Shown here: in pieces, positions 799-43,810 of the stretch
How the letters are laid out: each line of letters starts with the position of its first letter
Position numbering within the stretch: position 1 is the stretch's first letter
NCBI GenBank assembly: GCA_025774615.1
Contig: JALGVQ010000019.1
Span: 1 to 50,018, forward strand
Direction: 5' to 3'
Source: a bacterium
GTDB taxonomy: Bacteria; Blakebacterota; Blakebacteria; Blakebacterales; Blakebacteraceae
DNA length: 50,018 bases
Notes under the pieces: model-generated
The model's database searches: none
What the model was told of the DNA's origin: nothing
Seen by the model: the letters and a program-made list of their open reading frames with translations, nothing else
Made by a program: the position numbers and the translations under genes

Positions 799-833
799 AC
801 GGCCGTGATGATCTCGGGACGGACAGACAGTTG

Positions 834-11129: not shown

Positions 11130-11388
11130 GGCCAATCCCAGTGCTTATACATGCTTGAGACCGTCAACGAGTTTAAAGCACTCTCAGTTTCTCGTCAGCA
11201 TTATACCTGTCCCTCTCCATAATGCCATCCGACTGAATTGAATAAGCATTATTGGACATCCGGAATCCTTCTGCGATACACTCGGCCACAATATGCAACT
11301 CATATGGATTCTCTCCCCATATCACGGAGACCGTATGACATGATTGGCAAGAGTGTCAGCCTGGCGCCTCCTATAAAAGGTGCTGATT

Positions 11389-12621
11389 ATGAATGAATCC
11401 GGTTCCGGTAATCCGTGCCGACGTGATTTTCTTCGATCCGCCGCGCTGGCCGGTGGGGCGTTCGTGCTCGGGGCGGAGATCGCCGGGGGAGCGGCGTGCA
11501 GTGGAGAGGGCGGGCGCAGGTCATTACAGGGTGCCGTACCCTCATATCTTCAGGGATTCGAAGATGAGTACGCCGTGGATCCTCATGGCGCGGCCCTCGG
11601 GTGGTTCGAGCAGGCCAGGTTCGGACTCTTCATGCATTACGGCCTCTACAGTCAGCTCGGGCGCGGCGAGTGGGTGATGTACAATGAGAAAATTCCGGTC
11701 GCCGAATATGAGAAGCTGAAGGACACCTTCAGCGCAGACCGGTTCGACGCCGACTTCATCACCGACCTTGCCCTCGAGGCCGGGATGGGATACATCAACC
11801 TCACCTCCCGTCATCACGACGGTTTCTGCCTCTTCGAGACCTCCACCAGCGATTACCATAGCATGAATAGTCCCACGAAAAGGGATCTGGTAGGGGAACT
11901 GGCCGAGGCTTGCCGGGCTAAAGGTCTGGGGCTGTTCCTCTACTACTCGTATGGTGCGGACTGGCGTCACCCTTATTTCTACCCGAGGAGTTTCAGCCAG
12001 ATAGCGCGCCCCGATTACCCGGAGCCCGATCCTTCATACCTCTGGGAGAAGGACGAGGACTTCGAGGAATATCTCGATTACGCCCACGGGCAGATCCGTG
12101 AACTCCTGACCAATTACGGTCCCCTCGCCGGTATCTGGTTCGATCCGCTGATGGGATTCTACGGGCGGCCCGATCTCTTTCCCATGAGGGAAACCTACGA
12201 AATGGTCCGTCGCCTCCAGCCCCAGACTCTCATCAGCTTCAAGCAGGGTGTCACCGGGACCGAGGATTTCGCGGCTCCCGAACGGAGCGGTCGTTCCCTG
12301 GAAGACCGCATCCGTCAGCGCCATGGTGATGAGACCGCGCAGATCGCCGCCACGGCCTGGGCCTCGAACAAGGATAAACACAACGAGATCTGTGATACGC
12401 TGCAGAGACAGGGCTGGGGCTACCGGGAGGGTCCCGACGACTCACACAAAGGACCTGATGAAGTCATGCAGATGCTCGCTGCTGCGTTCGACCAGAACTG
12501 CAACCTGCTCCTGAATACAGGTCCTCTTCCCGATGGATCGATCCACCACAAAGACGCAGCCACCCTGAGTGAGGTCGGCAGGCATATCCGCGAATCTGGT
12601 TGGCTTCCTGCGCCTGCCTGA
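11389..12621 (+). CDS. GH29-type alpha-L-fucosidase, Tat-exported
   Basis: About 410 residues. CRRDFLRSAALAGGAFVLGA is a twin-arginine signal, followed by GGAACSGE, a poor lipobox. The catalytic domain shows GH29 landmarks: FGLFMHYGLYS (H83), RHHDGF (142-146) and AGIWFDPL (nucleophile Asp 252). There is no C-terminal carbohydrate-binding domain. It should release alpha-linked L-fucose with retention. ATG at 11389 follows AAAAGG at a usable distance; GTG at 11380 is the other option. It is divergent from the KamA gene across ~250 bp, in which I found no convincing promoter. It complements the GH95 enzyme, which has a different linkage preference. Confidence 0.85.
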   Translation: MNESGSGNPCRRDFLRSAALAGGAFVLGAEIAGGAACSGEGGRRSLQGAVPSYLQGFEDEYAVDPHGAALGWFEQARFGLFMHYGLYSQLGRGEWVMYNEKIPVAEYEKLKDTFSADRFDADFITDLALEAGMGYINLTSRHHDGFCLFETSTSDYHSMNSPTKRDLVGELAEACRAKGLGLFLYYSYGADWRHPYFYPRSFSQIARPDYPEPDPSYLWEKDEDFEEYLDYAHGQIRELLTNYGPLAGIWFDPLMGFYGRPDLFPMRETYEMVRRLQPQTLISFKQGVTGTEDFAAPERSGRSLEDRIRQRHGDETAQIAATAWASNKDKHNEICDTLQRQGWGYREGPDDSHKGPDEVMQMLAAAFDQNCNLLLNTGPLPDGSIHHKDAATLSEVGRHIRESGWLPAPA

Positions 12622-21623: not shown

Positions 21624-23798
21624 TCAGAACTTCCTGATCCAGAAGTAATCGAACCCGAACCGGCCCGCTTCGACACATTCCAGGACCAGCTCGTGTTCAC
21701 CTGCCTCCAGCGCTCCCCGGCGGAAGCCGGTGCTGAGCAGACGGCGGGCGAACCCGCTTCGCAGGACCAGCTCAGACTTCCCGCGTTCTCCCATCCCGGC
21801 GCCGCCGAGATTGGTCACTTCGAGCGGTGAACCGTCGAGCGATATGCGCAGGCTGCCCGACTCGGGCCAGTGGGCTGCCACCAGGTTGATAGCGTGATCA
21901 CCACTCTCCTCGATCTCGAAGGTGACCGTCAGGCGGTCACCGGCCTCGGCATTCCAGCAGAACAGACTTCCCCGCGATGCTCCTGGCTGCGCTTTCTCCG
22001 TGTCCAGGTCCCCGCCGGTGACGCTGTGCGTCATCGCATCCAGGTGGTGGAAGGTCGAGTTGCTCGCCCCGCCATAGGCCTCCGGTTCATACACGGGCAG
22101 GTCCCTGACCACCAGTTCGGATATCTGTACCCGGCGGTGATCGTCGAGAGCGCCCGGCCGGGCGTAGCAGTAGGCGATCCGGTCGTAACAGAGACCGGGA
22201 AATGCCCGGTGATGCCACAGCTCGAGGTAGAAGGCGAAGTGGTCGGAGAATGGCACCGAGTCGAGGATGTGCCAGCGGTGATTCGAAATATATCCCAGAG
22301 TGCCCGGGCCGGTGTCGAGGGGCTGTCCGCAGTAGGGATGATCGAACAGGTCGGGACGGCTCCATGAGTAATTGTAGTAGTCCTCCGTGCCGGTCCCGAA
22401 GAAGACGGGGAAGGGATCGTCGTCCACGAAGATCTTCTCATCACCCTCGCCCCACCAGTTGCCTCCGGGTGTGGGTACGGCTGAGGGATTCACCAGGAAC
22501 GATGCCGCGCCCACGAAACGTCCCTGGCCCTTCAGCACCACAAAGGGCACATCGAAGGGACCGGATGCCAGGTCGAGATCGTGGTCGCTCCTCCATCTGG
22601 CGCGGAAGTAGAGGGAAGTGTCGTCCCACTGCCACGGGGAGACGTTGATCGTCGTCTCGATATGGATCCAATCATCGGAGTGGTTCGTGAAGCGTAAGAG
22701 GGCGGTTTCCTGGAACGGCATGACGAACCGGCAGGTCATCGTCCCGTCCTCGCTGACGCTCATCGGCAGACTGTCATAGGGATTCACGCCTGGTCCTGAA
22801 CCGAAGAAGTCACCGGCGGGGGACTCGACCTGGTGCCGGGCCGCTCCATCGAATGCGATCTGAAGCAGGGTGCCGCGCAGTGCCTTCCACAGGTCGGGGG
22901 CAGTGACGCGCAGAGTGAACAGGGTGATGGCTCCGCTGGTGCCTGCCGAGGAGGCTTCGAGGTCCCAGCTGGTACCCGGAGCGAGGTCGGCCGAGCGTTC
23001 GTAGAGGGTGCCGGTCGGGGGAGAGGGGGGTGTGAGAAGTGCGGAAGCCGCAAGGAGCAGGTCCTCCTCACCGCGCCCGAGGTCCCGAACGGGATCGAAG
23101 CTCCTGACCCGGGTGCCCTCCTCGTACAGACGAACCTCAACATGGTAGAAGTGGAGTTCCTCCAGGTTGCCCTCCCAGGTGATGGTCAGCGACCGATTGA
23201 ACGGGATCGGCAGATAGTCGGCGTCCTGCTGGCGGAAGGCGTCTTCGCAATCGATATCCAGTCCCGCCTCTTCGAGGAACACGTCAGATTTTGCTGCAAG
23301 GAAGCTATAGGCGTCGCCCAGGTAGAGCGGTGAACTCGGGGCGTCGAGATAGACGTGGAGAGTGCCGGCCATCCTGGCTGACCAGGTCCGCACGATCGCT
23401 CCCGGTCCGTTCACCTCGCAGAGCAGGTAACTTCCGATGCCCTCCTCGTCTGGCTCGCGCAATACCCTCAGGAACCCGGGGATCGGTTCCCGTCCGAAAC
23501 CGTCGGAGTTGGAGAACCATCCCTCTTCCTCGGGAGAGACCGAACGCCTGTCGTAACTGGAGAACTGGATTGTCCGGTAGCCGGGGGCAGGCAGCCTCCC
23601 GAGTTCCGACAGGTCGGTCATCTCCTGGAGCAGGGTCGCGGTCGTGATCGTCCTCGCGCGTCCGCCCCCGGCCTGGGCCGAGGCGGGAACTGCGAGCAGG
23701 ACCACGATCAGCGCAGAGAGGATGGGGTAAGGGATAGAGCAAAGGATGCAGTCGAGGACGGGGGAGATGATGGAGTGGAGGCGAACTGGTCGATTCAT
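21624..23798 (-). CDS. DUF2961 (GH172-type) protein with C-terminal carbohydrate-binding-like domain
   Basis: 724 residues from the ATG at 23798, chosen because it is followed by a plausible Sec signal (PILSALIVVLLAVPASAQA); the open frame further upstream overlaps the URO-D gene. The central part carries the DUF2961 pattern: NWWGEGDEKIFVDDDPFP and FFGTGTEDYYNY, with paired acidic residues at the presumed active site, and GYISNHRWHILD. DUF2961 is now GH172, whose characterised members act on alpha-D-fructofuranosides and alpha-D-arabinofuranosides. The last ~120 residues (LTVTFEIEESGDHAINLVAA ... FDYFWIRKF) look like a beta-sandwich carbohydrate-binding module. It lies 37 bp behind a URO-D gene on the same strand. 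Activity on furanosides is family inference. Confidence 0.8.
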   Translation of the reverse strand: MNRPVRLHSIISPVLDCILCSIPYPILSALIVVLLAVPASAQAGGGRARTITTATLLQEMTDLSELGRLPAPGYRTIQFSSYDRRSVSPEEEGWFSNSDGFGREPIPGFLRVLREPDEEGIGSYLLCEVNGPGAIVRTWSARMAGTLHVYLDAPSSPLYLGDAYSFLAAKSDVFLEEAGLDIDCEDAFRQQDADYLPIPFNRSLTITWEGNLEELHFYHVEVRLYEEGTRVRSFDPVRDLGRGEEDLLLAASALLTPPSPPTGTLYERSADLAPGTSWDLEASSAGTSGAITLFTLRVTAPDLWKALRGTLLQIAFDGAARHQVESPAGDFFGSGPGVNPYDSLPMSVSEDGTMTCRFVMPFQETALLRFTNHSDDWIHIETTINVSPWQWDDTSLYFRARWRSDHDLDLASGPFDVPFVVLKGQGRFVGAASFLVNPSAVPTPGGNWWGEGDEKIFVDDDPFPVFFGTGTEDYYNYSWSRPDLFDHPYCGQPLDTGPGTLGYISNHRWHILDSVPFSDHFAFYLELWHHRAFPGLCYDRIAYCYARPGALDDHRRVQISELVVRDLPVYEPEAYGGASNSTFHHLDAMTHSVTGGDLDTEKAQPGASRGSLFCWNAEAGDRLTVTFEIEESGDHAINLVAAHWPESGSLRISLDGSPLEVTNLGGAGMGERGKSELVLRSGFARRLLSTGFRRGALEAGEHELVLECVEAGRFGFDYFWIRKF

Positions 23799-23835
23799 CT
23801 TCTGGGCCTTTCGATCTTGGGCATTCCAGGCGCAA

Positions 23836-24870
23836 CTATAACGCCAGCATCCCTTCTTCATAGAACGCATGAATGTTCTCCAACGGTGTATCCGCCTGGA
23901 TGTGATGGGCAGGAGCCAGGATGTAACCACCGCCTTCGCCGCATTCGCTCTTCAGTTTTCGGACTGCGGCACGGACCTCGTCCGGTGTACCGTGCGGCAT
24001 TGTATGCTGTACACAGAGTCCGCCGAAAAGCGCCAGGTGTTTCCCGTAACGGCGCTTCACCGCGAACGGATCGATCGCCGTCGGCTGCAGCGGGTTCAGG
24101 ACATCCAACCCGATCTCCACCATGTCGTCCAGGACCGCCTCACAGTTGCCACAACTGTGATAGGCTACCTTGATGTTCGGATTGATTTTCTTCGGCTCCG
24201 CGAAGAGTGTTGCCAGTCGCGGTTTCAGATACGTACGCCACATATCGACCGATATCATCATCCCCTGCTGGTGCGATATATCGTCCCCGAACCAGACCAT
24301 ATCCGCGCCCGATTCCGCATGCCTGCGCGAAGCGATCAGCGGAAAACGCATGACCTTGTCCAGCAATGCATTTGTGTAATCCGGATCGAGTGCCATATCC
24401 ATCAGGAACTCTTCCATCCCGCGCAGGTACCAGGCCGCCTCGAAGATGCTGATCTGGCTGGAACCGACCATCCATTTTTCTTTCCCGTACAGATCCTTCA
24501 TTTTCCGGAACGTCTCGTAATGCGAATCCAGTTCCGGATCCGGGATGATGAAGCTCTCCAGCTTCGACTTGTCACCGGCCAGCGGTGGACCGACGATCTC
24601 GGTATATTCCCCGATTCCGTAGCTCACCCAACGCCAGCGGATGCCCCAGGGACAGGTGTACTCCGGTCTCTCTCCACCATAGAAACTCAGTTCCAGGCCG
24701 GCAGAGGTCGTCACCAGATCACTCCCCAGTGCTGCCCCCAGATCCGGTTCCTTCTCACCGATCTCCGCTTGCAGCTGCGCCTGTATCTCCGGAACGAACG
24801 TTGCATAGATGGGGGGACGATCCGGGGTCTCGAAATTCAGGGCCATCTCGACACGTGTGCGTGAATCCAT
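23836..24870 (-). CDS. Uroporphyrinogen-decarboxylase-family (MtaA-like) protein
   Basis: 344 residues. TPDRPPIYATF near the N-terminus and YHSCGNCEAVLDDMVEIGLD in the barrel are URO-D superfamily features. HSCG supplies the His-x-Cys zinc pair of MtaA/CmuA methyltransferases. Where those have a third Cys before the TPLEN motif, this protein has APAHHIQADTPLEN, so His may replace Cys. It is not HemE. A strong GGGGGGAG site precedes the ATG at 24870. It is co-transcribed with the GH172 protein and divergent from the isomerase/ABC operon. No corrinoid protein or activating kinase is near, so methyl transfer is only a possibility. Confidence 0.8.
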   Translation of the reverse strand: MDSRTRVEMALNFETPDRPPIYATFVPEIQAQLQAEIGEKEPDLGAALGSDLVTTSAGLELSFYGGERPEYTCPWGIRWRWVSYGIGEYTEIVGPPLAGDKSKLESFIIPDPELDSHYETFRKMKDLYGKEKWMVGSSQISIFEAAWYLRGMEEFLMDMALDPDYTNALLDKVMRFPLIASRRHAESGADMVWFGDDISHQQGMMISVDMWRTYLKPRLATLFAEPKKINPNIKVAYHSCGNCEAVLDDMVEIGLDVLNPLQPTAIDPFAVKRRYGKHLALFGGLCVQHTMPHGTPDEVRAAVRKLKSECGEGGGYILAPAHHIQADTPLENIHAFYEEGMLAL

Positions 24871-25035
24871 ATCCGACTCCCCCCGGGTTCATCCCATTCT
24901 ACATCCCTGGACACCAATCTTGAAGAGGGGATGCCGGATCGACATCGATCGGCAAAGACGGTGGGCCGACAGACTGATAGAGGTGTAGACTCACCCGAAA
25001 AACAGTGCCGGTAATCGACAACAGGAGCGATGAAG

Positions 25036-26682
25036 ATGGCGGAGTACACGATCCCGGTAATTGAGAAACCGAAGAAGGTATGCGGTAACCAGGTGGTGCT
25101 GGTGGCCAGTGGTGATCTTCGCGAGTCGGCGAACCAGGTCTGCTGGCCGGCCCAGGCGGAGATGGAGAAATCCCTCAGATCGGTGGCTGCCTCTCTCGGG
25201 TACGAGATAGTCAGGGCACACCCTTACCGCCCCTCGAAGAAGCACGGGTTTATCGGTTCGCAGCGGGAGGGGATGGAGGTCTTTGCCGGTATCGATCCCG
25301 ACGCTCCGCTGATCGTGGCTGAGGCGGTCTGGCAGTACTCTCACCATGTCCTGTCCGGTCTGATCGGTCACCGGGGTCCCATCCTCACCGTCGCCAACTG
25401 GTCGGGTCAGTGGCCCGGGCTGGTCGGGATGCTCAACCTGAACGGTTCCCTCACCAGGGCAGAGGTGAAATACTCGACCCTCTGGGGTGAGGACTTCAGC
25501 GATCCCGCCTTCAGGAACAAACTGAAGACCTGGCTCGAGAAGGGGCGAGTCACCCATCGGCTCGATCACGTCACGCCGTATGAGAAGGTCCGGATACCCG
25601 CGAAGGAACGGAAGCTCGGAGAAGCACTGGCAACTCAGCTCAAACAGCAGCGTGCGATCATGGGGATCTTCGATGAGGGATGCATGGGCATGTACAACGC
25701 CATCATTCCCGACCACCTCCTGAACCCGACCGGTGTCTTCAAAGAACGGTTGAGCCAGTCGGCGCTGTATGCAGCCACCATGGCGGTACCCGATTCCGAG
25801 GCCAGGGAAGTCCTCCGCTGGATTCGCAAGGCAGGGATGAAGTTCAGGTTCGGCAAGGATGAAGCGACCGAACTGACCCGGGAGCAGGTGCTCACCCAGT
25901 GCAAGATGTACATAGCCGCGCTGCGGATTGCGGGCGAGTTCGGTTGCGATACTATCGGTATCCAGTACCAGCAGGGCCTGAAGGACTGCCTCCCCGCTTC
26001 CGACCTGGCCGAAGGGATGCTGAACGATTCGAAGCGGCCTCCGGTCAGGGATGCCCGCGGACGGATCCTCTACCGTGGCGATCCCCTGCCGCATTTCAAC
26101 GAAGTGGACGAATGCGCCGGCCTGGACGGCCTGATGATCTTCCGGGTCCACAAAGCGATGGGCGAACCGGTGGAGAACACCCTTCATGACCTGCGCTGGG
26201 GGGATGTGGACCGATCGGGCACCGTCGATGACTACGTCTGGGTATTTGAGATCAGCGGGGCCGTCCCGCCCTCTCACTTCATCGGCGGCTGGAGCGGGGC
26301 AGTGGGGGAACGCCAGCCGCCCATGTACTTCCGCCTCGGCGGGAGCACCATCAAGGGGATCAGCCGGCCCGGGGAGATCATCTGGTCGAGGATCTACGTC
26401 GAGAAGAATCGGCTGAACATGGACATCGGACGGGGGAAGGTCGTGGAACTGCCCCGGAAGGAGACACAGCGTCGGTGGGATTCCACCACACCCCAGTGGC
26501 CGATCATGCATGGTGTCACGTACGGTGTGAGCCGTGACCAGATGATGGCCCGGCACAAGGCCAACCACATCCAGGTGGTCTATGCAGGGAGTGCTGAACG
26601 GGCCGATAAGGCAATGTACGCCAGGGCCTCCATGGCTGAGGCCCTCGGCATCACGGTCAGTTTCTGCGGGACAAAGAGGTAG
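25036..26682 (+). CDS. L-fucose/L-arabinose-isomerase-family protein
   Basis: About 548 residues. [20 protein letters not shown] in the middle and the C-terminal [20 protein letters not shown], with [10 protein letters not shown] near the end, match the FucI-type ketol isomerase family. That family interconverts aldoses such as L-fucose, D-arabinose or L-arabinose with their ketoses using Mn2+. Acidic metal ligands (Glu of DEGC, Glu/Asp of NEVDECAG) and the late His are present. AGGAG at 25023-25027 suits the ATG at 25036 better than that at 25030. It starts a four-gene operon with a ribose-type ABC importer, 7 bp ahead of the ATPase gene. Substrate not fixed; D-arabinose or L-fucose are both plausible given the GH172, GH29 and GH95 enzymes nearby. 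Confidence 0.8.
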
Positions 26683-26689
26683 CGTCCGG

Positions 26690-28201
26690 GTGGAACCGCT
26701 TCTGCGGATGGAATCGATCATCAAGGCCTTCTCAGGCGTGCGTGTCCTGCACGGCGTCGAATTCGAAGTTCTGCCGGGGGAAGTGATGGCCCTCGTAGGA
26801 GAGAACGGGGCGGGGAAGTCCACCCTGATGAAGATCGTGGCCGGTGTTCATCAAGAGTGGCAGGGGGACCTTCATTTCGACGGCGAGCAGGTCAGGTTTC
26901 CTGCTACCCGGGCCGCCGAGGAAGCCGGCATCGCTATCATCTACCAGGAATTGAACCTGGTGCCCGGTCTCACCGTGGCCGAGAACATGTTCCTCGGCCG
27001 GGAGCCGACCCGATTCGGCGGTGTCATCGACTACGCAGCCATGAACCGGATGGCGCGTGAGATCATGGACTCGCTCCATTTCGACGATCCGGTGACGATC
27101 CCGGTTTCGGAACTCCGTATCGGCGGCCAGCAGCTCGTGGAGATCGGCAAGGCGCTCTCACTCGATGCCCGCCTGCTGGTGATGGATGAACCGACCTCGG
27201 CCCTGACCGGGGCGGAGGCTGAAATCCTCTTCACGGTTGTTCGAAAACTGCGTTCAGATGGGGTCTCGATCGTCTATATCTCGCACCGTCTCGATGAACT
27301 CTACCAGATAGCCGATCGGGTGACGGTCATGCGCGACGGCAGAACGGTCGGCGTTATGAACGCGGAGGATATATCCCGCCGGGAACTGATCAGCCTGATG
27401 GTCGGACGTGATTTCGAACAATTCTTTGTCAGGGAGGGGGAACCGGACGAGGATGTCGTGTTCAGGGTGCGCAATCTCACACGGGTGAACGAGGTGCCTG
27501 GCAGGCGTGCTCTGCTTGATGACATCTCCTTCGAAGTACGTCGGGGCGAGCAGTTCGGTATCGCCGGACTACTCGGCTCGGGGCGGACAGAACTGCTGGA
27601 GGCGCTGTTCGGCGTGGCTGCCCGCGACACGCGTGGAAGAGTGGAACTTGAGGGGGTGGAACTGGATCTCTCCAATCCGCGCCAGGCGATCGAGGCCGGG
27701 ATCGCGCTGCTCACGGAGGACCGGAAGGGCAACGGGCTCGTGCTTAGCATGAATGTCGAACAGAATCTGACCCTGGCCGCCCTGAAGGAACTCCTCCACC
27801 TCTGCATGATATCTCCCGGGAAGGAACGGGCTCTGGCAGAGGAGTATGTGGACCGGCTGTCGATCGATGTGGCCGACCTCGGCAATCCGATCGAATCTCT
27901 CTCGGGCGGCAATCAGCAGAAAGTGCTTCTCGCCAAGTGGTTGGCAACCCGTCCGAGGGTGCTCCTGCTCGACGAACCGACCAGGGGTGTCGACGTCGGC
28001 GCCAAGCACGAACTCTACATCTACCTTTCGAAGCTGGCTGAAGAAGGGGTCTCGATCATCATGACATCATCCGAACTTCCGGAACTCCTCTCGATCTGCG
28101 ATCGGATCATGGTATTGAGGGAAGGTCGGGTTTCGGCTCTCTTCGACCATGAGGAAGCGACCCAGGAGAAGATCCTGCACGCCGCGGCGCCAGCGGCATG
28201 A
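26690..28201 (+). CDS. Sugar ABC importer, double ATPase (RbsA/AraG type)
   Basis: 503 residues with two ATPase domains. Domain 1: Walker A GENGAGKST, signature LRIGGQQLVEIGKAL, Walker B LLVMDEPTSAL. Domain 2: degenerate Walker A (AGLLGSGRTELL) but full signature LSGGNQQKV and LLLDEPTRGVD. This is the standard layout of CUT2 importers for monosaccharides. GTG at 26690 is chosen because the family begins with EPLLxMxxIxKxFxGV and the site is 7 bp behind the isomerase stop. The stop overlaps the permease start (ATGA). Confidence 0.9.
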   Translation: MEPLLRMESIIKAFSGVRVLHGVEFEVLPGEVMALVGENGAGKSTLMKIVAGVHQEWQGDLHFDGEQVRFPATRAAEEAGIAIIYQELNLVPGLTVAENMFLGREPTRFGGVIDYAAMNRMAREIMDSLHFDDPVTIPVSELRIGGQQLVEIGKALSLDARLLVMDEPTSALTGAEAEILFTVVRKLRSDGVSIVYISHRLDELYQIADRVTVMRDGRTVGVMNAEDISRRELISLMVGRDFEQFFVREGEPDEDVVFRVRNLTRVNEVPGRRALLDDISFEVRRGEQFGIAGLLGSGRTELLEALFGVAARDTRGRVELEGVELDLSNPRQAIEAGIALLTEDRKGNGLVLSMNVEQNLTLAALKELLHLCMISPGKERALAEEYVDRLSIDVADLGNPIESLSGGNQQKVLLAKWLATRPRVLLLDEPTRGVDVGAKHELYIYLSKLAEEGVSIIMTSSELPELLSICDRIMVLREGRVSALFDHEEATQEKILHAAAPAA

Positions 28202-29412
28202 ACCGGAGAACGATGAACGGGCTCGACGAACAGATGACCGGCACGACATCAACCGCACGCGGGCTGGCCCGCCGCCTCGGTCCCTTCCTCGGTCTGATCG
28301 GGATCCTCCTTGCCGGGGTTGTCCTTAACGGTCAGACCTTCCTCAGTCTCTACAACCAGCTGAATGTGCTCGGTCGGGTATCGATCATCGCCCTGCCGGC
28401 GATCGGTATGACACTGGTCATCATCTCGGCCGGTATCGATCTCTCTGTCGGTAGCCTGCTCTCCCTCTCAACGGTTGCCTGTGCCATGCTCCTCATGGAG
28501 CGGGAGTGGACCCGCGCTACCTCGATCACAGTGCCCCTCTTCATCCTGTTCGCGCTCATGGTGGGTTACTTTATCGGCAGAGGTATCCTCATCCACAAAG
28601 GCCACGATCGGAAACGGGCCGACATTGTCGGTCTGATCGCAGGGCTCCTGATGGCGGTAGCTGTCGGATTGTGGAGCAGTGCGCAGGTGGCACATGGTTT
28701 CAGCACCATCGCGGTCCTGCTGATCATCCCGATCCTGGGATTATTCCTCGGGGCTTTCAACGGTGTGATCATCGCGAAAGGGAGGATCCAGCCCTTCATC
28801 GTGACGCTGGGGATGATGAGTGCGGCCATGGGACTGGCGAAATTCATCGCCGGCAGGGGTGGGCAGATCCACCCGATCTACTACCAGTCAGCCGGGTACA
28901 GCGCTGAAGGAACCGTCAACATCGCCCCTCAGAGCTTCGACTTTCTGAGTAGCCAGGTGGTGATCCACTTCACACTGACCAGACTCCGTTTCGGGCGGCA
29001 CATCTATGCCATAGGCGGCAATGAGGAGACAGCTCGGCTCTCAGGCGTGAACGTCGACCGGGTGAAGATGATGGTCTACGGGATCTGCGGGAGTCTCTCG
29101 GCACTGGCCGGAGTGCTCTATTGTGCCTCCTACAGCCAGGGGAAGCCGGACGCGGGCGCCACCTGGGAACTCGACGCCATCGCTGCGGTTGTGATCGGCG
29201 GCACCAGCCTGATGGGTGGCAGGGGGACGGTGATCGGGACGATGGTAGGGGTTCTCATACTCGGATACCTGGGGAATATCCTGAACCTCCAGGAAGTACC
29301 GAGTGAAGTGCAGGACATCCTGAAGGGTGTGATCATCATCGGTGCTGTCCTCCTCCAGGAGGGTACGCTCCTCTGGTGGTTGCGGGGCATCAAGCGGAAG
29401 AGGATCAGTTAG
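28198..29412 (+). CDS. Sugar ABC importer permease (RbsC type), atypical length
   Basis: 404 residues, against ~320 usual. AGIDLSVGSLLSLS, FGRHIYAIGGNEETARLSG and LDAIAAVVIGGTSLMGG identify a CUT2 permease. Two departures stand out. About 70 extra residues (101-170) between family segments add one or two membrane helices around a charged loop (IHKGHDRKRAD). Around residues 250-262 the helix normally found before the FGRH motif is reduced to SSQVVIHFTLTRL, so a membrane segment seems shortened by a dozen or more residues. The frame is intact. It starts inside the ATPase stop and precedes the binding protein. Confidence 0.85.
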   Translation: MNRRTMNGLDEQMTGTTSTARGLARRLGPFLGLIGILLAGVVLNGQTFLSLYNQLNVLGRVSIIALPAIGMTLVIISAGIDLSVGSLLSLSTVACAMLLMEREWTRATSITVPLFILFALMVGYFIGRGILIHKGHDRKRADIVGLIAGLLMAVAVGLWSSAQVAHGFSTIAVLLIIPILGLFLGAFNGVIIAKGRIQPFIVTLGMMSAAMGLAKFIAGRGGQIHPIYYQSAGYSAEGTVNIAPQSFDFLSSQVVIHFTLTRLRFGRHIYAIGGNEETARLSGVNVDRVKMMVYGICGSLSALAGVLYCASYSQGKPDAGATWELDAIAAVVIGGTSLMGGRGTVIGTMVGVLILGYLGNILNLQEVPSEVQDILKGVIIIGAVLLQEGTLLWWLRGIKRKRIS

Positions 29413-29457
29413 AGAGGCCGGTATCCGGCACGGACGAATTCCCGGGAGGGATACAGT

Positions 29458-30468
29458 ATGGAGCAGAAAATGCACGACCGGATCGGAGCCATCCACACCA
29501 GACGATATCTGTTGTCCGCACTGACGATTCTCCTGCTGTTGCCGGTCGTGATGACCGGGTGCGCGAAGTCGGCGGATGAGGGAACGTGGGTTATCGGCTT
29601 CTCGCAGGTGACGGTGAAGGAGCCGTGGCGGGTGGTCTTCAACGAGAACCTGAGGGCGAAGGCGCTCGAGTACGGTGATGCGGTCGATCTGATCGTGCTC
29701 GATGCCGATGACAGGACCGAGAACCAGGTCGAACATATCCAGATCTTCATATCACGGCAGGTGGACGCAATCCTGATCTCTCCGAAGGAAGCCTCAGGAT
29801 GCTCGCGCGCGATCCAGGAGGCCACTGAAGCGGGAATCCCGGTGATCGTGCTCGACCGTGACACGACCTGGAAGGGATACGCGGCGTTCATCGGGGCGAG
29901 CAATCTGGTCATCGGTCGTGCCGCAGGGACGTATGCGGTCCAGCAACTGGGTGGTGCCGGGTCGGCTGAAGGGAAGATCTACGAGATCTGCGGTGCGCTG
30001 GCTTCGACACCGGCCCAGGAGAGACGCGACGGATTTCACGAGGTCGTCGGTCAGGAGCCGGGGGTAGTGATTCTGGGCGGTCTCGACGGCGACTGGAAGC
30101 TCGATCAGGGCAAGGCCATCGCACAGGACGCTCTCCAGATCCACCGGGATATAGACATCATCTACGCGCACAACGATCCGATGGCATACGGAGCATACCA
30201 GGCCGCGCGTGAGATGGGTGTCGCCGACCGGATCAGGTTCCTCGGTATCGACGGTCTGCCCGAGGAGGGGGCCGTGTGGGTCCGGAACGGGATACTGGCA
30301 GCGACCTTCCTCTACTCGACTCCGGGAGAAGCAGGGCTCGAAATCGCCATCGATATTCTCGAGGGGCGCCGTGAGATCACGCCCGGCGAGCGGATCACCC
30401 TTCCGACCGCGACCATCACCGCGGAGAACGTCACGGAATTCCTGAAGCAGGATGATCCACGCCCGTGA
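29458..30468 (+). CDS. Sugar ABC importer periplasmic binding lipoprotein (RbsB type)
   Basis: 336 residues. A hydrophobic leader ends in the lipobox VMTGC, so the protein is a lipid-anchored periplasmic binding protein. The body follows the type I fold: WVIGFSQVTVKEPWRVVF, QVDAILISPKEASG, IPVIVLDRD and IIYAHNDPMAYGAYQAA are the usual hinge and ligand-binding segments of ribose/galactose-type receptors. GGGAGG precedes the ATG. Last gene of the isomerase-ATPase-permease-receptor operon. Sugar specificity is not readable. Confidence 0.9.
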   Translation: MEQKMHDRIGAIHTRRYLLSALTILLLLPVVMTGCAKSADEGTWVIGFSQVTVKEPWRVVFNENLRAKALEYGDAVDLIVLDADDRTENQVEHIQIFISRQVDAILISPKEASGCSRAIQEATEAGIPVIVLDRDTTWKGYAAFIGASNLVIGRAAGTYAVQQLGGAGSAEGKIYEICGALASTPAQERRDGFHEVVGQEPGVVILGGLDGDWKLDQGKAIAQDALQIHRDIDIIYAHNDPMAYGAYQAAREMGVADRIRFLGIDGLPEEGAVWVRNGILAATFLYSTPGEAGLEIAIDILEGRREITPGERITLPTATITAENVTEFLKQDDPRP

Positions 30469-30487
30469 TCTGAACGGGATCACGGGC
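30461..30487. terminator. Hairpin between converging genes
   Basis: GCCCGTGATC (30461-30470) pairs perfectly with GATCACGGGC (30478-30487) over a 7-base loop. The stem contains the TGA stop of the binding-protein gene. No T-run follows on either strand. It lies between the ABC operon (+) and the GH172 gene (-) and may end or protect both transcripts. Confidence 0.5.
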
Positions 30488-30507
30488 TGATCAGCCGGCC
30501 GGACAGA

Positions 30508-31668
30508 TCACTTCGCGATCGCAAGAGCCTCCCGAGAGGGCAGAGTCGGGAAGGGCGCGTGCGGTTCCGCCTGGTACCAGAACGCCACCGATGAAATGTC
30601 ATCCTGAAGATGCAGATACCGTCCTTCACTCTTCCAGCCAAGAGCCTGCATCGTCACCCTGAGATCCTTCTCGAAACGTACTGGATCCATGATGTGCCAC
30701 CGGTAGAGACCGAAGCGGGGTGGCGTGTTCCGCTCCTCGTTCGGTCTGAGGACCTGCGGCATGCCGGCATAGGGGGTGCTGAACTCCATGTAATCCCGGG
30801 TCCTCGGATTCGAGAATCCGTATGAGCCACAGAAGTAGTCCTCGGTGCCCGTACCGCAGATGGTGGGAAACTCTCCGTCTCCATCCATGAAGAACTTGAT
30901 CTCACCCTCACCCCACCAGCCGGGACTGTTTGCCCCCCAGCACATGTAGGTGCCGACGTACTGCCCCTGACCACTGACACCCTCAAGGATGGTGAAATCC
31001 TCCATGTCAGGCAGGGGATTGGAGCGACGGAACTGGGCATGGAAGTATCCGGCGTCACGGGGAATCTCTGTCAGGGTGTAGTCGATCTGGTAATAGAGGG
31101 TCATGCCCCGTTCGTCGATGTTCTCCATGGTGACCCGGCACGACCCTCTGAAGGGCATCGTCCAGTAGCAGTTGAAACCACTGCCGGGATTGACGCAGAC
31201 GGCCAGTGAATTCACGTGCGCGAACTCGCCCCATCCGTTGGCGAAGAAATCGCCCACCGGGACCTCGATCGACGCTTCGTTCTCACCGTCCCAGTAGAAG
31301 CGGAGGATCGAGTGCCGCCAGTTACCGGTCGGGGTCATCCAGATATGCTGGATCGCTCCCGGTCCATCGATCTCGGCAAGGGTGAAGGTCTCCCCGGCGG
31401 AGATACGCACCGAGGGCGAGACTTTCCAGCCCTGTCCCAGTTCGCGGGCGGCATTGGCACCGGTGCCCTCAGTTGCCATCCCGGCCATTCCCTTCTCACC
31501 GGTGAAGCTCTCGGGGCTGATCGAACGAGTCTTCGCGTCGCTCAGGAGCGGGAGGGTGGAGAGGCTCATCTCGAGCCCGTCGAAGTCTTCCCGGTCGGCG
31601 CAGCCAGAAAGGGGCGCGACGCACATCCCGAACAGCGCTATTGCGGTGACAGCCTTCAGCATCAACAT
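30508..31668 (-). CDS. DUF2961 (GH172-type) lipoprotein
   Basis: 386 residues. The leader ends in the lipobox PLSGC, predicting a membrane-anchored protein. The DUF2961 core is compact: FTLAEIDGPGAIQHIWM, SIEVPVGDFFANG, PGWWGEGEIKFFMDGD and CGTGTEDYFCGSYGF, which hold the conserved acidic pair. The closing RFGLYRWHIMDPVRFEKDLR is also typical. GH172 members hydrolyse or rearrange alpha-D-fructofuranosides and alpha-D-arabinofuranosides. AGGAG sits 8 bp before the ATG at 31668. It is the last gene of a minus-strand group with the (alpha/alpha)6 lipoprotein and flavin reductase, and it converges with the isomerase/ABC operon. No extra binding domain, unlike its paralogue at 21624. Confidence 0.85.
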   Translation of the reverse strand: MLMLKAVTAIALFGMCVAPLSGCADREDFDGLEMSLSTLPLLSDAKTRSISPESFTGEKGMAGMATEGTGANAARELGQGWKVSPSVRISAGETFTLAEIDGPGAIQHIWMTPTGNWRHSILRFYWDGENEASIEVPVGDFFANGWGEFAHVNSLAVCVNPGSGFNCYWTMPFRGSCRVTMENIDERGMTLYYQIDYTLTEIPRDAGYFHAQFRRSNPLPDMEDFTILEGVSGQGQYVGTYMCWGANSPGWWGEGEIKFFMDGDGEFPTICGTGTEDYFCGSYGFSNPRTRDYMEFSTPYAGMPQVLRPNEERNTPPRFGLYRWHIMDPVRFEKDLRVTMQALGWKSEGRYLHLQDDISSVAFWYQAEPHAPFPTLPSREALAIAK

Positions 31669-31732: not shown

Positions 31733-34072
31733 TCATCGGGTCCGTTCTTCCCTCGGCCGGACAGGTGGTCGGATGACTATCCTGTCGACCAGGGTGACTT
31801 TCTCTTCCGAACCATCTTCGTAGACGATCCGGATGGTCCGCGGCGTGCCAGTTTCATTAACGAGTACCCAGCGTCGACCTCTTTTCCGGACCTCTACCCG
31901 ATCGATCCCGAAGGCCTGATCGCGGTCGCGGTCGATGTAGACATGGCCCCAGTGATCGAGGATACGCATTGCTGCTTCGGCAGCGGCCCCATTGCCCCAG
32001 TCGTAGATGGTGAAGACTCCCATTCCCTCACCTTCGGGGGAGGTGCGGCCGCCGTGGCCGTAGTTCTCCATGGTGAAGCCGTAGTCTTCCGGCCCGAACC
32101 AGGGGTAGACCTTTTCCCACATCTCCCGCACGATCGGATTCTCGGGGCAATACATCATGATGAAGCCCGACTTCAATGCCGCGATGCCGCGCTCGAAGCA
32201 GGCAGGATCGCCGGTCCAGCGATAGTAGTCGAGGAAGAGTTCGGCGAAGAGTGTTTCACGCGAGTCATTCCACTCCCCGTCGGCATTCATCACCCCAAAT
32301 CCACCCAGTGCGGGCACATGGATGAAGGGGGGCTGCCAGACCTGCTGGGCCATGGAGAGTTCATCCAGGGTACGCCACCCGAAGCCGAGGTAGTGCTGGC
32401 TGCCGGTCACGCGCCATGCCTGCAGGAGCGCTTCGGCTGTCCAGAACATCGACAGGGTGTTCTGCTTGTGCATGGCATTGCGATCGATCTTCCGATCGAG
32501 GTACATATCACGACCCCAGCCGCAGCACGACCAGTAGGTCTCGTAATCGAGCCAGTTGCCCTCAGGGACGATCTCGGCAAGCACAGCATCCATGGCCCTG
32601 AGCGCGGCCTCGCGGTAGCGGGATTCGCCGGTCACCCCGGCCAGTTCGAGCAGGAAGGTCACGCTCATGCTTGTCTCGGGGGTACGGTTCATGACCGGGC
32701 CAGGTGCGTGGGTCTCCGGATGGAGCCAGCCCGGGAAGAATCCCTCTTCGCCCTGAAGGGTGAGCAGGCGGTCGCCCCAGGCGCGGGCGTAGTCGACCAG
32801 GCGCTCATCGCTCTCCAGTTCCAGGTGCCAGCGGAGCATGAGCAGGGCGGTCCAGCTGGCATCCAGGACATGGTACCAGTCGTCAGAGATGCCGTGATCG
32901 CGGGGAGAGCGGTTCGAATTGGTCCAGACAGCCTCATCCCAGTCCAGCGGACGACGATACTGCTCCCCGTCGATCTCCACCGTCTCATTGGGAGTGCGTA
33001 TCACGGCGGGGAACACACCGTCCGTCATCGGCGCTGCCAGGGCCAGTTCCTTCGTGAGCCGTGCTTTGCGCAGCAACTCCTCATCGCCGATGTCCCGCGC
33101 ATATCGATAGAGCCCCGATGCGCTGCGCAGAGACGAGAACCAGGTCTGGTTCCAGATCGAGAGGAATTCCCGCTGGTACCACACACCCGGGTAGTTGGGC
33201 GACTGGGAGATGTTGACGATGAACTGCGGAGCGCCCACCCGCACGCCACCCAGATCGAACTCCTGCCAGACGAAATCACCCCATGATTCGAAGGCCCAGT
33301 CGTATGTGTGCTGCGTATAGGTCTCAAGCGATGCCTGGACCGGTTCCCCTGCGACCAGGAGGGGGCTCCCCCAGCGTCCCCACAGGAAGGATGTCACCGG
33401 CGACCAGGGATTTCGCACTCCCCACTGGTCCTTCCAGACACGGATGAAGAAAGAGAGCTCCACCTCACCGGCCTCGATAGTCATCCCTGGTGCCTTCGTG
33501 TAGAGAACGTGGACGGGGATGTCGGTCAGGGTCATGCCGAGCCACAGCTGCCGGGCAGGAGCGTCCAGATCGAGGAACCAGGGATTGCCTGGCCGATCTC
33601 CGACCAGGTCCAGGTCGGGAACGATGGCCAGGCTGAGGTGATCCTGCTGGACGATCAGGGCGGGGGAGCGGAAGACGTGCTGCGCGATCACGTATCCCTC
33701 TTCCGGGGCGAGATGAGGCGCCCACCAGAAATCGGGTTCCATGGAGAGATCGAACATCACGGAGAGTTCGTCCTGGGTTATCTCGTGAGGGACCTCCCAC
33801 CGCATGCTCACCTGCTGCCAGCCCTCTTCTACCGCCCGGACCGACACCCGGGGCAGACCGATTCCGGCCAGTTCGGGAAGCTGAAAGTCCATGCACGCTT
33901 CCTCGTTGAGGGTCACCCGGTAACCTGAAACGGTTCGCGTGATGGACATCTCATCATCGGGCCCCGTCCGGGAAGTGGTTCCATCCCGGCTGCAGCCTCC
34001 GCAGACTCCCATGAAGCCGATAAGCACGACAAAGACGACCAGGTTTATTTTCTTGATGCTCATGACGGTCAT
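31733..34072 (-). CDS. Lipoprotein with (alpha/alpha)6-barrel glycosidase-like domain
   Basis: 779 residues. A hydrophobic leader (INLVVFVVLIGFMGV) is followed by CGGCS, a likely lipid-attachment site. Residues ~40-280 are beta-rich. From ~290 on there are regularly spaced helices with paired aromatics (VWYQREFLSIWNQTWFSS, WYHVLDASWTALLMLRW, WLDYETYWSCCGWGRD), as in six-hairpin glycosidases and lyases. A short beta-rich tail ends the protein. I do not recognise a numbered GH or PL family. Its ATG overlaps the flavin-reductase stop by 4 bp; a second ATG at 34063 is possible. The position before a GH172 gene suggests surface or periplasmic glycan processing. Confidence 0.55.
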   Translation of the reverse strand: MTVMSIKKINLVVFVVLIGFMGVCGGCSRDGTTSRTGPDDEMSITRTVSGYRVTLNEEACMDFQLPELAGIGLPRVSVRAVEEGWQQVSMRWEVPHEITQDELSVMFDLSMEPDFWWAPHLAPEEGYVIAQHVFRSPALIVQQDHLSLAIVPDLDLVGDRPGNPWFLDLDAPARQLWLGMTLTDIPVHVLYTKAPGMTIEAGEVELSFFIRVWKDQWGVRNPWSPVTSFLWGRWGSPLLVAGEPVQASLETYTQHTYDWAFESWGDFVWQEFDLGGVRVGAPQFIVNISQSPNYPGVWYQREFLSIWNQTWFSSLRSASGLYRYARDIGDEELLRKARLTKELALAAPMTDGVFPAVIRTPNETVEIDGEQYRRPLDWDEAVWTNSNRSPRDHGISDDWYHVLDASWTALLMLRWHLELESDERLVDYARAWGDRLLTLQGEEGFFPGWLHPETHAPGPVMNRTPETSMSVTFLLELAGVTGESRYREAALRAMDAVLAEIVPEGNWLDYETYWSCCGWGRDMYLDRKIDRNAMHKQNTLSMFWTAEALLQAWRVTGSQHYLGFGWRTLDELSMAQQVWQPPFIHVPALGGFGVMNADGEWNDSRETLFAELFLDYYRWTGDPACFERGIAALKSGFIMMYCPENPIVREMWEKVYPWFGPEDYGFTMENYGHGGRTSPEGEGMGVFTIYDWGNGAAAEAAMRILDHWGHVYIDRDRDQAFGIDRVEVRKRGRRWVLVNETGTPRTIRIVYEDGSEEKVTLVDRIVIRPPVRPREERTR

Positions 34073-34689
34073 TCTCCGGGGGGCTTATACCTGATCCGCT
34101 CCATCGGGAAGGTCTCGGTGATCCGCAGGTAGGAGTCGAGATGCAGGCGTCCGATCACGTTCATCGTCAGCGGATCGATCCCCTCGGCCCGGTCCCACTC
34201 CAGATCCTCGCGCAGCCAGTAAGCCCTCACTTCTCCCAGGATGAGTGAGGCCGGTGGATCCCCGACCGGTACGATCCGTTCCAGGACACATTCCAGGGCA
34301 GCGGGAGAGCCCGCGATACGCGGTACGCTGACCGTTCCGGAGGGTGCCAGTTCGATCCCGATCTCATCAGGTTCGCTCACCCCGTACGGGTACTCGGTGG
34401 CAGTACGGTTCATCTGTTCCGCCTGTTCCTCACTTACCAGGTTCACGACGAACTCACCTGTTGCGGCAACGTTTCGGGGAGTGTCCTTTTCGCCGTGGCG
34501 ACCCTGCCCGGCGCTTATCGAGATCACGGGCGGTTTACTGCGTACACCGCTGAAGAAGCTGTAAGGCGCGGCGTTCACAACACCGTCGGTACTGATGCTG
34601 GTCACCCAGGCGATGGGGCGGGGGACGATCAGACTGATAAGAAGCCGGTGGGCTTCCAGCCCGGTCAGTCCGGCGGGATCGATGATCAT
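34069..34689 (-). CDS. Flavin reductase-like FMN-binding protein
   Basis: 206 residues of the flavin-reductase-like split-barrel family. SLIVPRPIAWVTSISTDGV, NAAPYSFFSGVRSKPPVI and NVAATGEFVVNLVS are the FMN-binding signatures. Such proteins bind FMN and reduce flavin with NAD(P)H, often for a partner oxygenase, or have undefined roles. GGGAGGT is 10 bp before the ATG at 34689. It is the first gene of the minus-strand trio and is translationally coupled to the next. No oxygenase partner is in the window, so its part in glycan use is unclear. Confidence 0.85.
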   Translation of the reverse strand: MIIDPAGLTGLEAHRLLISLIVPRPIAWVTSISTDGVVNAAPYSFFSGVRSKPPVISISAGQGRHGEKDTPRNVAATGEFVVNLVSEEQAEQMNRTATEYPYGVSEPDEIGIELAPSGTVSVPRIAGSPAALECVLERIVPVGDPPASLILGEVRAYWLREDLEWDRAEGIDPLTMNVIGRLHLDSYLRITETFPMERIRYKPPGE

Positions 34690-42046: not shown

Positions 42047-43729
42047 TCAACGCCGGATCGTGTAGGTGTCGTCGATGAACGATCCCAGTTGCCGGTAGCG
42101 GTCGTACAGGTCCCGGTATCGCTCGGCGTTCTCCCGATCGGGCCGGTACTCGGCATCGAATCCGTTGCCCATTCTCCGCTGGGCCTCTTCGATCGTACCG
42201 TACACCCCTGCTGCCGTGGCGGCTGCCATGGCGCTTCCCAGGGCACAGGCCTGTTCGGCCCGGGCTACCCGGATAGGTACATCCAGTACATCGGTGACGA
42301 CCTGCATCACGAAAGGGGACCTCTTCGGGATGCCGCCCAGTGCGATCACCCCCTTGATGGGAACACCCTCCTCAATGAACCGGTCGACGATCGCCCTGGC
42401 CCCGAAGGCGGTTGCTTCGACCAGAGCGCGAAAAATGCGGGGCGGATCCGATCCCAGGGTCAGACCGGTCAGCGCACCCTTCAACGCCTGGTCGGCGTCG
42501 GGAGTGCGTCTCCCATTCAGCCAGTCGAGGGCGACGATCCCGCCATCGTCGATCGGAAGTCTGGCGGCTTCCTCCGAAAGCAGGGGGAGAATCTTCTCCA
42601 CTGCCGAATCGATGACATCTTCAGCGGAATCCGTTTCGATCCCCGCCTCCGGCAGACAGAGTGCAAGCGGCCATGCCAGCATTTTCCGGAACCAGGCGTA
42701 CACATCGCCGAAGGCCGACTGCCCCGCTTCCATCCCTACCATACCCGGGAGAATGGAGCCGTCGACCTGACCGCAGATGCCCCGGATCGTTCTCTCACCG
42801 ATCTCATCGGGAGGTGCCACCAGCATGTCACAGGTCGAGGTTCCCATCACCTTGCTCAGGATGTACGGGGCTATCTCAGCTCCGACCGCTCCCAGGTGGG
42901 CGTCTATAGCTCCCACGCCGACCGTGATCCCCGCTGGAAGCCCCAGGCGCCCGGCCCATTCCTCCGTCATTTGTCCCGCAGGTGTATCGATCGTCCAGGT
43001 CTCCCGGTAGAGACGGTCGCGTAGTCCTTCAAGACGCGGATCCACATGCCGGAGGAACTCCTCTGATGGAAGCCCCTCGAATGATGTATGCCACATCGCT
43101 TTGTGTCCGGCAGCGCAGCGGCTCCGCCTGATGGTAAGCGCATCGGTGTTTCCGGTGAGCAGGGCGGGTATCCAGTCGCAGTGTTCGATCCACGACCAGG
43201 TTGCGGCACTGACCTTTGGATCAGCTCGGAGGATGTGAAGTATCTTTGACCAGAACCATTCGGAGGAGTAGATACCGCCTGAGTAGCGGGAGAAATCCTC
43301 GCCGCCCCAGGACCTGGCGGCACGATTGATCTCCTCCGCCTCGGCCACTGCTGTATGGTCTTTCCAGAGAACGAACATCGCGTTCGGATTTTCTTCGAAT
43401 CCTTCTGTCAGGGCGAGGGGGGTGCCGCTTCGGTCGATAGCGACAGGAGTCGATCCGGTCGTGTCCACCGAGAGTCCGACGATCCGGTCGGCCGTTCCGG
43501 CCGGGGCTTCCTCCAGGGCCTGCAGGACCGTGACCTCGAGCCCTTCGATATAGTCGAGCGGATGCTGCCGGAAACGGTTGGACGCGGGGTCACTGTACCG
43601 TCCTTCACTCCACCGGCGGTAGTCAGCGACCGCGCTTGAAACTTCCGAGCCGTCACCCGTTTCGATAATGGCCGTCCTGACAGAGTCGGTGCCGAAATCG
43701 ATGCCGATCGTCAGTGCGCTGCTCTTCAT
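42047..43729 (-). CDS. araB: Ribulokinase-type FGGY carbohydrate kinase
   Basis: 560 residues, close to the ~566 of ribulokinase. TIGIDFGTDSVRTAIIETG is the N-terminal phosphate-binding motif, VGLSVDTTGSTPVAID the ribulokinase-specific segment, and GVIALGGIPKRSPFVMQV the C-terminal FGGY motif region. It should phosphorylate a ketopentose (L- or D-ribulose) with ATP. GGGAGGT precedes the ATG at 43729. It is a single gene with its own promoter and a LacI-like operator in a ~98-base leader, so it is sugar-regulated. The FucI/AraA-like isomerase at 25036 could supply its substrate. The symbol reflects family, not proven specificity. Confidence 0.85.
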   Translation of the reverse strand: MKSSALTIGIDFGTDSVRTAIIETGDGSEVSSAVADYRRWSEGRYSDPASNRFRQHPLDYIEGLEVTVLQALEEAPAGTADRIVGLSVDTTGSTPVAIDRSGTPLALTEGFEENPNAMFVLWKDHTAVAEAEEINRAARSWGGEDFSRYSGGIYSSEWFWSKILHILRADPKVSAATWSWIEHCDWIPALLTGNTDALTIRRSRCAAGHKAMWHTSFEGLPSEEFLRHVDPRLEGLRDRLYRETWTIDTPAGQMTEEWAGRLGLPAGITVGVGAIDAHLGAVGAEIAPYILSKVMGTSTCDMLVAPPDEIGERTIRGICGQVDGSILPGMVGMEAGQSAFGDVYAWFRKMLAWPLALCLPEAGIETDSAEDVIDSAVEKILPLLSEEAARLPIDDGGIVALDWLNGRRTPDADQALKGALTGLTLGSDPPRIFRALVEATAFGARAIVDRFIEEGVPIKGVIALGGIPKRSPFVMQVVTDVLDVPIRVARAEQACALGSAMAAATAAGVYGTIEEAQRRMGNGFDAEYRPDRENAERYRDLYDRYRQLGSFIDDTYTIRR

Positions 43730-43795
43730 GCCAACCTCCCGGGTGCTCTCTGGTTCTGGCAGGATGATTTGCTGATTATCCACTTCCATCCTACG

Positions 43796-43810
43796 ATGCA
43801 AACGGTTGCT
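43796..43810. promoter_or_regulatory. LacI/GalR-family operator upstream of the ribulokinase gene
   Basis: GCAAACGGTTGC (43798-43809) is a palindrome with the central CG typical of LacI-family operators. The surrounding 15 bases fit the loose CcpA-type consensus WTGNAANCGNWNNCW at every fixed position. It lies just after the predicted transcription start, where repressor would block transcription. No LacI-type gene is in the window. Confidence 0.6.

Follow-up and report, generated by a model that had tools for sequence, protein, structure and literature searches.

The closest described counterparts of the locus reported here are two bacterial systems acting on D-arabinan. The D-arabinan polysaccharide utilization locus (PUL) of Microbacterium arabinogalactanolyticum encodes EndoMA, ExoMA1, and ExoMA2, of which ExoMA1 is a proven exo-alpha-D-arabinofuranosidase (PMC10509167). 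PUL42 of Dysgonomonas gadei contains three GH172 genes and a predicted fucose isomerase, which are abundant during growth on D-arabinan, the isomerase being the most abundant carbohydrate-active protein on this glycan (PMC10115798). Here we describe a candidate D-arabinose scavenging locus on a 50,018-nucleotide stretch of DNA (hereafter the window) from a member of the Blakebacteraceae (contig JALGVQ010000019.1 of assembly GCA_025774615.1), in which the genes for a FucI-like isomerase and a CUT2 ATP-binding cassette (ABC) sugar importer lie between two GH172 genes, GH172a and GH172b. The window corresponds to contig C255 in an assembly of 3.3 Mb and 82% completeness, and genome-wide absences reported below refer to family searches of that assembly.

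Like the Microbacterium PUL, the window combines an ExoMA1-clade GH172 enzyme, an ABC importer, an isomerase, and a kinase in one neighborhood. In contrast, the Microbacterium system has an SBP_bac_8-type binding protein and is thought to import oligosaccharides, whereas the window encodes a CUT2 importer, and the Microbacterium exo-enzymes lack signal sequences, whereas GH172b is predicted to be exported (PMC10509167). The Dysgonomonas locus, whose isomerase is likened to that of the window by description, is a Bacteroidota PUL with GH183 endo-arabinanases, whereas the window encodes a CUT2 importer. Neither GH183 (searched without a positive control) nor GH116 exo-beta-D-arabinofuranosidase (controls positive in three) was found in the genome of the window. 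The D-arabinose theme is known from other bacteria, and it is the layout in this lineage that is new, for a sugar that we infer.

On balance, we lean toward a D-arabinose scavenging system, a reading that is moderately supported. Outside the cytoplasm, exported GH172b would cleave off terminal alpha-D-arabinofuranosyl residues, perhaps with the aid of GH172a and of the lipoprotein encoded next to GH172b, and the CUT2 transporter would bring in the free sugar. The isomerase would then convert D-arabinose to D-ribulose, and an AraB-type kinase encoded elsewhere in the window would phosphorylate D-ribulose to D-ribulose 5-phosphate, which would enter the pentose phosphate pathway. Gene order, family membership, fold, metal site, catalytic glutamates, clade placement, and partly conserved linkage are computational results, whereas the sugar, its source glycan, the role of the kinase in the pathway, and the whole of the biochemistry are inferred.

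GH172b scored 315.2 bits against DUF2961 (cut-off 27). Its closest PDB structure was ExoMA1 (8ic8, E=1.2e-129), with aFFase1 and the Bacteroidota structures far behind. In the aligned motifs GWWGEGE and GTGTED, both catalytic glutamates, equivalent to E270/E291 of aFFase1, were retained along with the neighboring aspartate. In a midpoint-rooted tree of 74 rows, GH172b was placed deep within a clade of 42 rows that also held ExoMA1 (support 100/96), and aFFase1 and DgGH172c fell outside this clade. From its sequence, GH172b is a probable exo-alpha-D-arabinofuranosidase. The N-terminus of GH172b is a lipoprotein signal, and an exported-type N-terminus was found in all GH172 proteins linked to the ABC operon; most of the unlinked close homologues of GH172b had no hydrophobic N-terminus in a simple hydropathy test. 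Export of the ABC-linked GH172 proteins suits a monosaccharide-type importer.

A single-sequence phmmer search of the PDB with the isomerase returned no relative. A profile built from 32 relatives, however, matched D-arabinose isomerase 3a9r best (1e-24), followed by L-fucose isomerase 1fui (2.8e-22), while the same profile gave no match to L-arabinose isomerase (AraA) in the PDB. The AlphaFold2 model (pLDDT 92.1) was likewise closest to 3a9r (Z 37.4 over 340 residues), with Z values of about 34-36 for FucI and about 29-33 for AraA; identity to 1fui and 3a9r across the aligned core was about 17-19%. Residues E358/D387/H513, invariant in the 32 relatives, aligned with E337/D361/H528 of FucI, which we take to be the Mn-binding ligands in the E. 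coli structure. In a Pfam scan of the protein, PF02952 (29.1 bits, cut-off 29.3) and PF07881 (20.9 bits, cut-off 28) both fell slightly under their cut-offs; in a six-frame genome search, the C-terminal domain PF02952 just exceeded the cut-off (31.9 bits). No NCBIfam model matched. The isomerase belongs to a large subfamily, mostly from the Planctomycetota-Verrucomicrobiota-Chlamydiota group, which accounts for at least 577 matches in the GTDB species set (mostly Planctomycetota and Verrucomicrobiota). It has no name in NCBIfam, and the members tested score close to the Pfam cut-offs. FucI-type enzymes generally accept D-arabinose as well as L-fucose; the sugar therefore cannot be identified from the isomerase alone, which may serve L-fucose too.

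The isomerase, ATPase, permease, and receptor genes form, in this order, a tight operon on the + strand (Table 1), in which the ATPase start codon lies 7 bp past the isomerase stop and the ATPase and permease genes overlap by 4 bp. The transporter has the components of a CUT2 importer, namely a double-domain ATPase, a BPD_transp_2 permease, and a Peripla_BP_4 receptor. GH172b and the receptor gene converge, and the lipoprotein gene precedes GH172b. On the other side, a uroporphyrinogen decarboxylase (URO-D)-like gene, transcribed away from the isomerase, separates GH172a from the isomerase, and GH172a is therefore divergent from the operon and a separate transcription unit. GH172a matched DUF2961 with 184.3 bits (E=3.4e-54); the match covers residues 351-589 in the frame opened by GTG 23930 (21624-23930). 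The protein contains the catalytic motifs NWWGEGDE and GTGTEDYY as well as a signal peptide predicted by eye (VPASA/QA). Its branch in the same tree was very long (4.4), too divergent for placement in a substrate clade. One further GH172 gene was found in the assembly, on contig C65. By our arithmetic, random placement of three GH172 genes would bring two within the same 10 kb with a chance of about 3x10^-5; this null is generous, because carbohydrate genes tend to cluster.

The kinase scored 733.7 bits against NF003154 (cut-off 428) and 624.7 bits against the L-ribulokinase model TIGR01234 (cut-off 583), and its closest PDB structure was the AraB L-ribulokinase 3qdk (E=2.8e-103). Unlike in AraB systems, AraA (PF02610) was not found in the assembly (controls positive in five), nor was an AraD-like epimerase found outside a rhamnose locus. 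The sole class II aldolase of the genome is in that rhamnose locus (contig C282, L109), together with RhaA, a RhaB-type kinase, and a second CUT2 transporter, so that the AraB-type kinase is without its usual partners in the assembly. A third FGGY match was a kinase on contig C72 with neighbors that appear xylose-like by eye. AraB of E. coli has been reported to phosphorylate D-ribulose (PMC12307932). AraB-type genes were also found directly upstream of isomerase homologues at four loci (L044, L050, L067, L235), and the three that were scanned all exceeded the cut-off of the NCBIfam ribulokinase model PRK04123.

The sequence-only reading of this stretch had proposed two GH172/DUF2961 proteins flanking an operon of isomerase, ATPase, permease, and receptor, and both points were confirmed. 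It had overlooked the URO-D-like gene, however, and with it the position of GH172a outside the operon. Its FucI/AraA-like isomerase proved FucI-like in fold and metal triad, but scored at or just below the FucI Pfam cut-offs, and its ribulokinase-type FGGY kinase was borne out by the NCBIfam cut-offs, although at a distance from the operon.

Linkage of a GH172 gene to a transporter of this type took three forms. In addition to the window, a single operon at an Ereboglobus locus (L094) had a GH172b homologue (63%) followed in the same direction by the ATPase, permease, receptor, and isomerase genes, and a family mate (G002) carried a different GH172 directly upstream of the orthologous ATPase, permease, and receptor genes (74, 73, and 77% identity). 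In a genus mate (G001), the URO-D, isomerase, ATPase, and permease genes were together on one contig, with URO-D divergent to the isomerase, and the lipoprotein and GH172b genes were adjacent on another (84 and 82% identical to those of the window). Most of the 80 GTDB isomerase loci taken from the at least 577 relatives shared no neighbors. The linkage of GH172 to the operon is real in a few operons and is not general.

Table 1. Coordinates of the genes discussed, with positions counted from the first base of the window.
Feature	Coordinates	Strand	Remarks
GH172a, divergent GH172 with N-terminal extension	21624..23798	-	likely start ATG 23798
URO-D-superfamily gene, MtaA/CmuA methyltransferase-like	23836..24870	-	PF01208 E=4.8e-32; TIGR01463 1.4e-22, under cut-off
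FucI/D-arabinose-isomerase-superfamily aldose-ketose isomerase	25030..26682	+	profile match, fold, metal triad
CUT2 sugar ABC ATPase, two ABC domains	26690..28201	+	likely start GTG 26690, also from homologues
CUT2 permease	28198..29412	+	PF02653 E=6.3e-43
CUT2 sugar-binding receptor	29458..30468	+	PF13407 E=4.2e-48
GH172b, exported, lipobox ...PLSGC	30508..31668	-	DUF2961 E=3.3e-94
Unclassified lipoprotein, directly upstream of GH172b	31733..34072	-	no Pfam/NCBIfam family
AraB-type FGGY ribulokinase, unlinked to araA/araD	42047..43801	-	NCBIfam ribulokinase models
GH29 alpha-L-fucosidase	11380..12621	+	PF01120 E=1.3e-61
GH95 enzyme	6375..8681	-	PF22124 E=1.3e-175

The lipoprotein encoded upstream of GH172b (779 amino acids) matched no Pfam family at E<=0.001 and no NCBIfam family, and it may be a new glycosidase-type partner of GH172b. 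Its predicted structure suggested beta, helical, and beta regions at low confidence (pLDDT 31.7, two sequences). A flavin-reductase-like gene (34069-34689) overlaps the start of the lipoprotein gene by 4 bp and was not seen upstream of the lipoprotein in the genus mate. The URO-D-like gene in Table 1, which is MtaA/CmuA-like, is one of three divergent URO-D-superfamily genes in the window (831-1886, 23836-24870, 35431-36588). A URO-D gene divergent to a distant isomerase homologue in another genome (G131) was considered as a conserved link and rejected as coincidence, since it is not close to the 23836 gene. Between the GH95 and GH29 genes, the frame at 8943-11135 encodes a 730-residue protein without a Pfam family, with a KamA-type radical S-adenosylmethionine (aminomutase-like) region under the NCBIfam cut-off. 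The third GH172 gene, on C65 (L023:15882-19364, -), is a 1160-residue open frame with the GH172 domain at residues 17-248 and a Cons_hypoth698 (UPF0324/YeiH-like) membrane domain at residues 809-1129, its start being cut by the contig edge.

Several results weigh against D-arabinose and were considered together with the explanations that compete with it. The preference of ExoMA1 for alpha-D-arabinofuranosides over alpha-D-fructofuranosides has been ascribed to Asn253, in place of Gly299 of aFFase1 (PMC10509167). Of 43 clade members, 33 have Asn at this position, among them the Ereboglobus copy, but GH172b of the window and of the genus mate have Gly, as does the ABC-linked GH172 of the family mate, so that GH172b may have fructofuranosidase activity. 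The best PDB match of the receptor was the sensor domain 2x7x (E=4.9e-46), which we take to be that of BT1754. BT1754 is reported to bind fructose (PMC3404733). GH172b could accordingly free fructose from alpha-D-fructofuranosides for uptake by the CUT2 importer, in the manner of aFFase1 from Bifidobacterium dentium (7v1v), a GH172 fructofuranosidase and difructose dianhydride I enzyme with the same Gly, and the isomerase would be incidental or serve another sugar. We consider this distinctly unlikely, as GH172b lies in the ExoMA1 clade and not with aFFase1, Tyr replaces Trp298 of aFFase1, and an aldose isomerase, which fructose does not require, is encoded in the operons of both the window and Ereboglobus. 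L-fucose, named as the main alternative by the sequence-only reading, retains that place for the isomerase. Under this explanation, which is unlikely but has more to commend it, the enzyme would be the L-fucose isomerase of the genome, supplied by GH29 and GH95, while the rhamnose locus would lend its kinase and aldolase and GH172 would act separately. Many Verrucomicrobiota have a class II aldolase gene beside the isomerase, a context of the L-fucose type, and a few have a rhamnulokinase-like gene there; GH29 and GH95 are encoded at 6-13 kb of the window, and no second FucI-type gene was found in the genome. In addition, the isomerase of another family mate (G003) lies behind a different CUT2 operon, the ATPase and permease of which share 66-76% identity with their counterparts in the rhamnose-locus transporter. 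The locus itself, however, has neither a fuculokinase nor a dedicated fuculose-phosphate aldolase, the GH29 and GH95 genes are 12-18 kb from the isomerase with an SSF symporter on the GH95 side, and in the family mate and Ereboglobus it is GH172, not fucosidases, that is linked to the ABC operon.

Use of L-arabinose through a non-AraA isomerase and AraB, with GH172 unrelated, is extremely unlikely. The kinase passes the L-ribulokinase model, the fold family of the isomerase includes AraA, and one genome (G272) has the isomerase in a row with an AraB-type gene and a class II aldolase-family stretch; but at the sequence level the isomerase profile has no matches other than FucI and D-arabinose isomerases, FucI-type stereochemistry is unsuited to L-arabinose, and no AraD-like epimerase was found outside the rhamnose locus, as described above. 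The neighborhood could also be fortuitous, an operon for a general CUT2 importer and an isomerase beside unrelated glycoside hydrolase genes in a polysaccharide-rich region. Of 387 Verrucomicrobiota genomes, 84 had GH172b and 48 the isomerase, and their co-occurrence in 10 genomes matched the 10.4 expected (Fisher odds ratio 0.94, p=1), so that co-occurrence at the genome level lends no support to a joint function. Further, GH172b and the receptor gene are apart in the genus mate, where an unrelated gene follows GH172b. Coincidence is nevertheless very unlikely, given that the linkage recurs in Ereboglobus and the family mate in differing arrangements. Recurrence of the gene set in related genomes was partial, seen in these two operons and not in overall co-occurrence.

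For the D-arabinose pathway itself, the kinase gene is 11.6 kb from the operon, which also counts against it. The proposed path from GH172 through importer and isomerase to ribulokinase still has the strongest support of the readings considered and finds parallels in the literature (PMC10509167, PMC10115798), with D-arabinose as its presumed sugar. Assignment of both GH172 proteins to D-arabinofuranosides is probable for GH172b, in view of its clade and notwithstanding its fructose-permissive Gly, and not for GH172a, the divergence of which means that release of the same sugar by both cannot be judged. D-arabinan as the source glycan was overstated: since GH183 (searched without a positive control) and GH116 were not found in the assembly, the term is too strong and a full D-arabinan degrader is not supported. 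A more far-reaching version, in which exported GH172 lipoproteins, CUT2 monosaccharide uptake, a divergent, unnamed, and widespread isomerase clade, and the 31733-34072 lipoprotein as a glycosidase of a new family working with GH172 make up a kind of D-arabinose scavenging distinct from the known D-arabinan systems, in a lineage that is poorly sampled, appears doubtful.

Apart from cell walls of the mycobacterial type and a small number of other glycans, D-arabinose is rare. Dedicated D-arabinose uptake in unrelated bacteria, if true, would imply overlooked environmental sources of D-arabinofuranosides. Moreover, assigning a function to the isomerase clade would annotate hundreds of genomes, mostly of Planctomycetota and Verrucomicrobiota.

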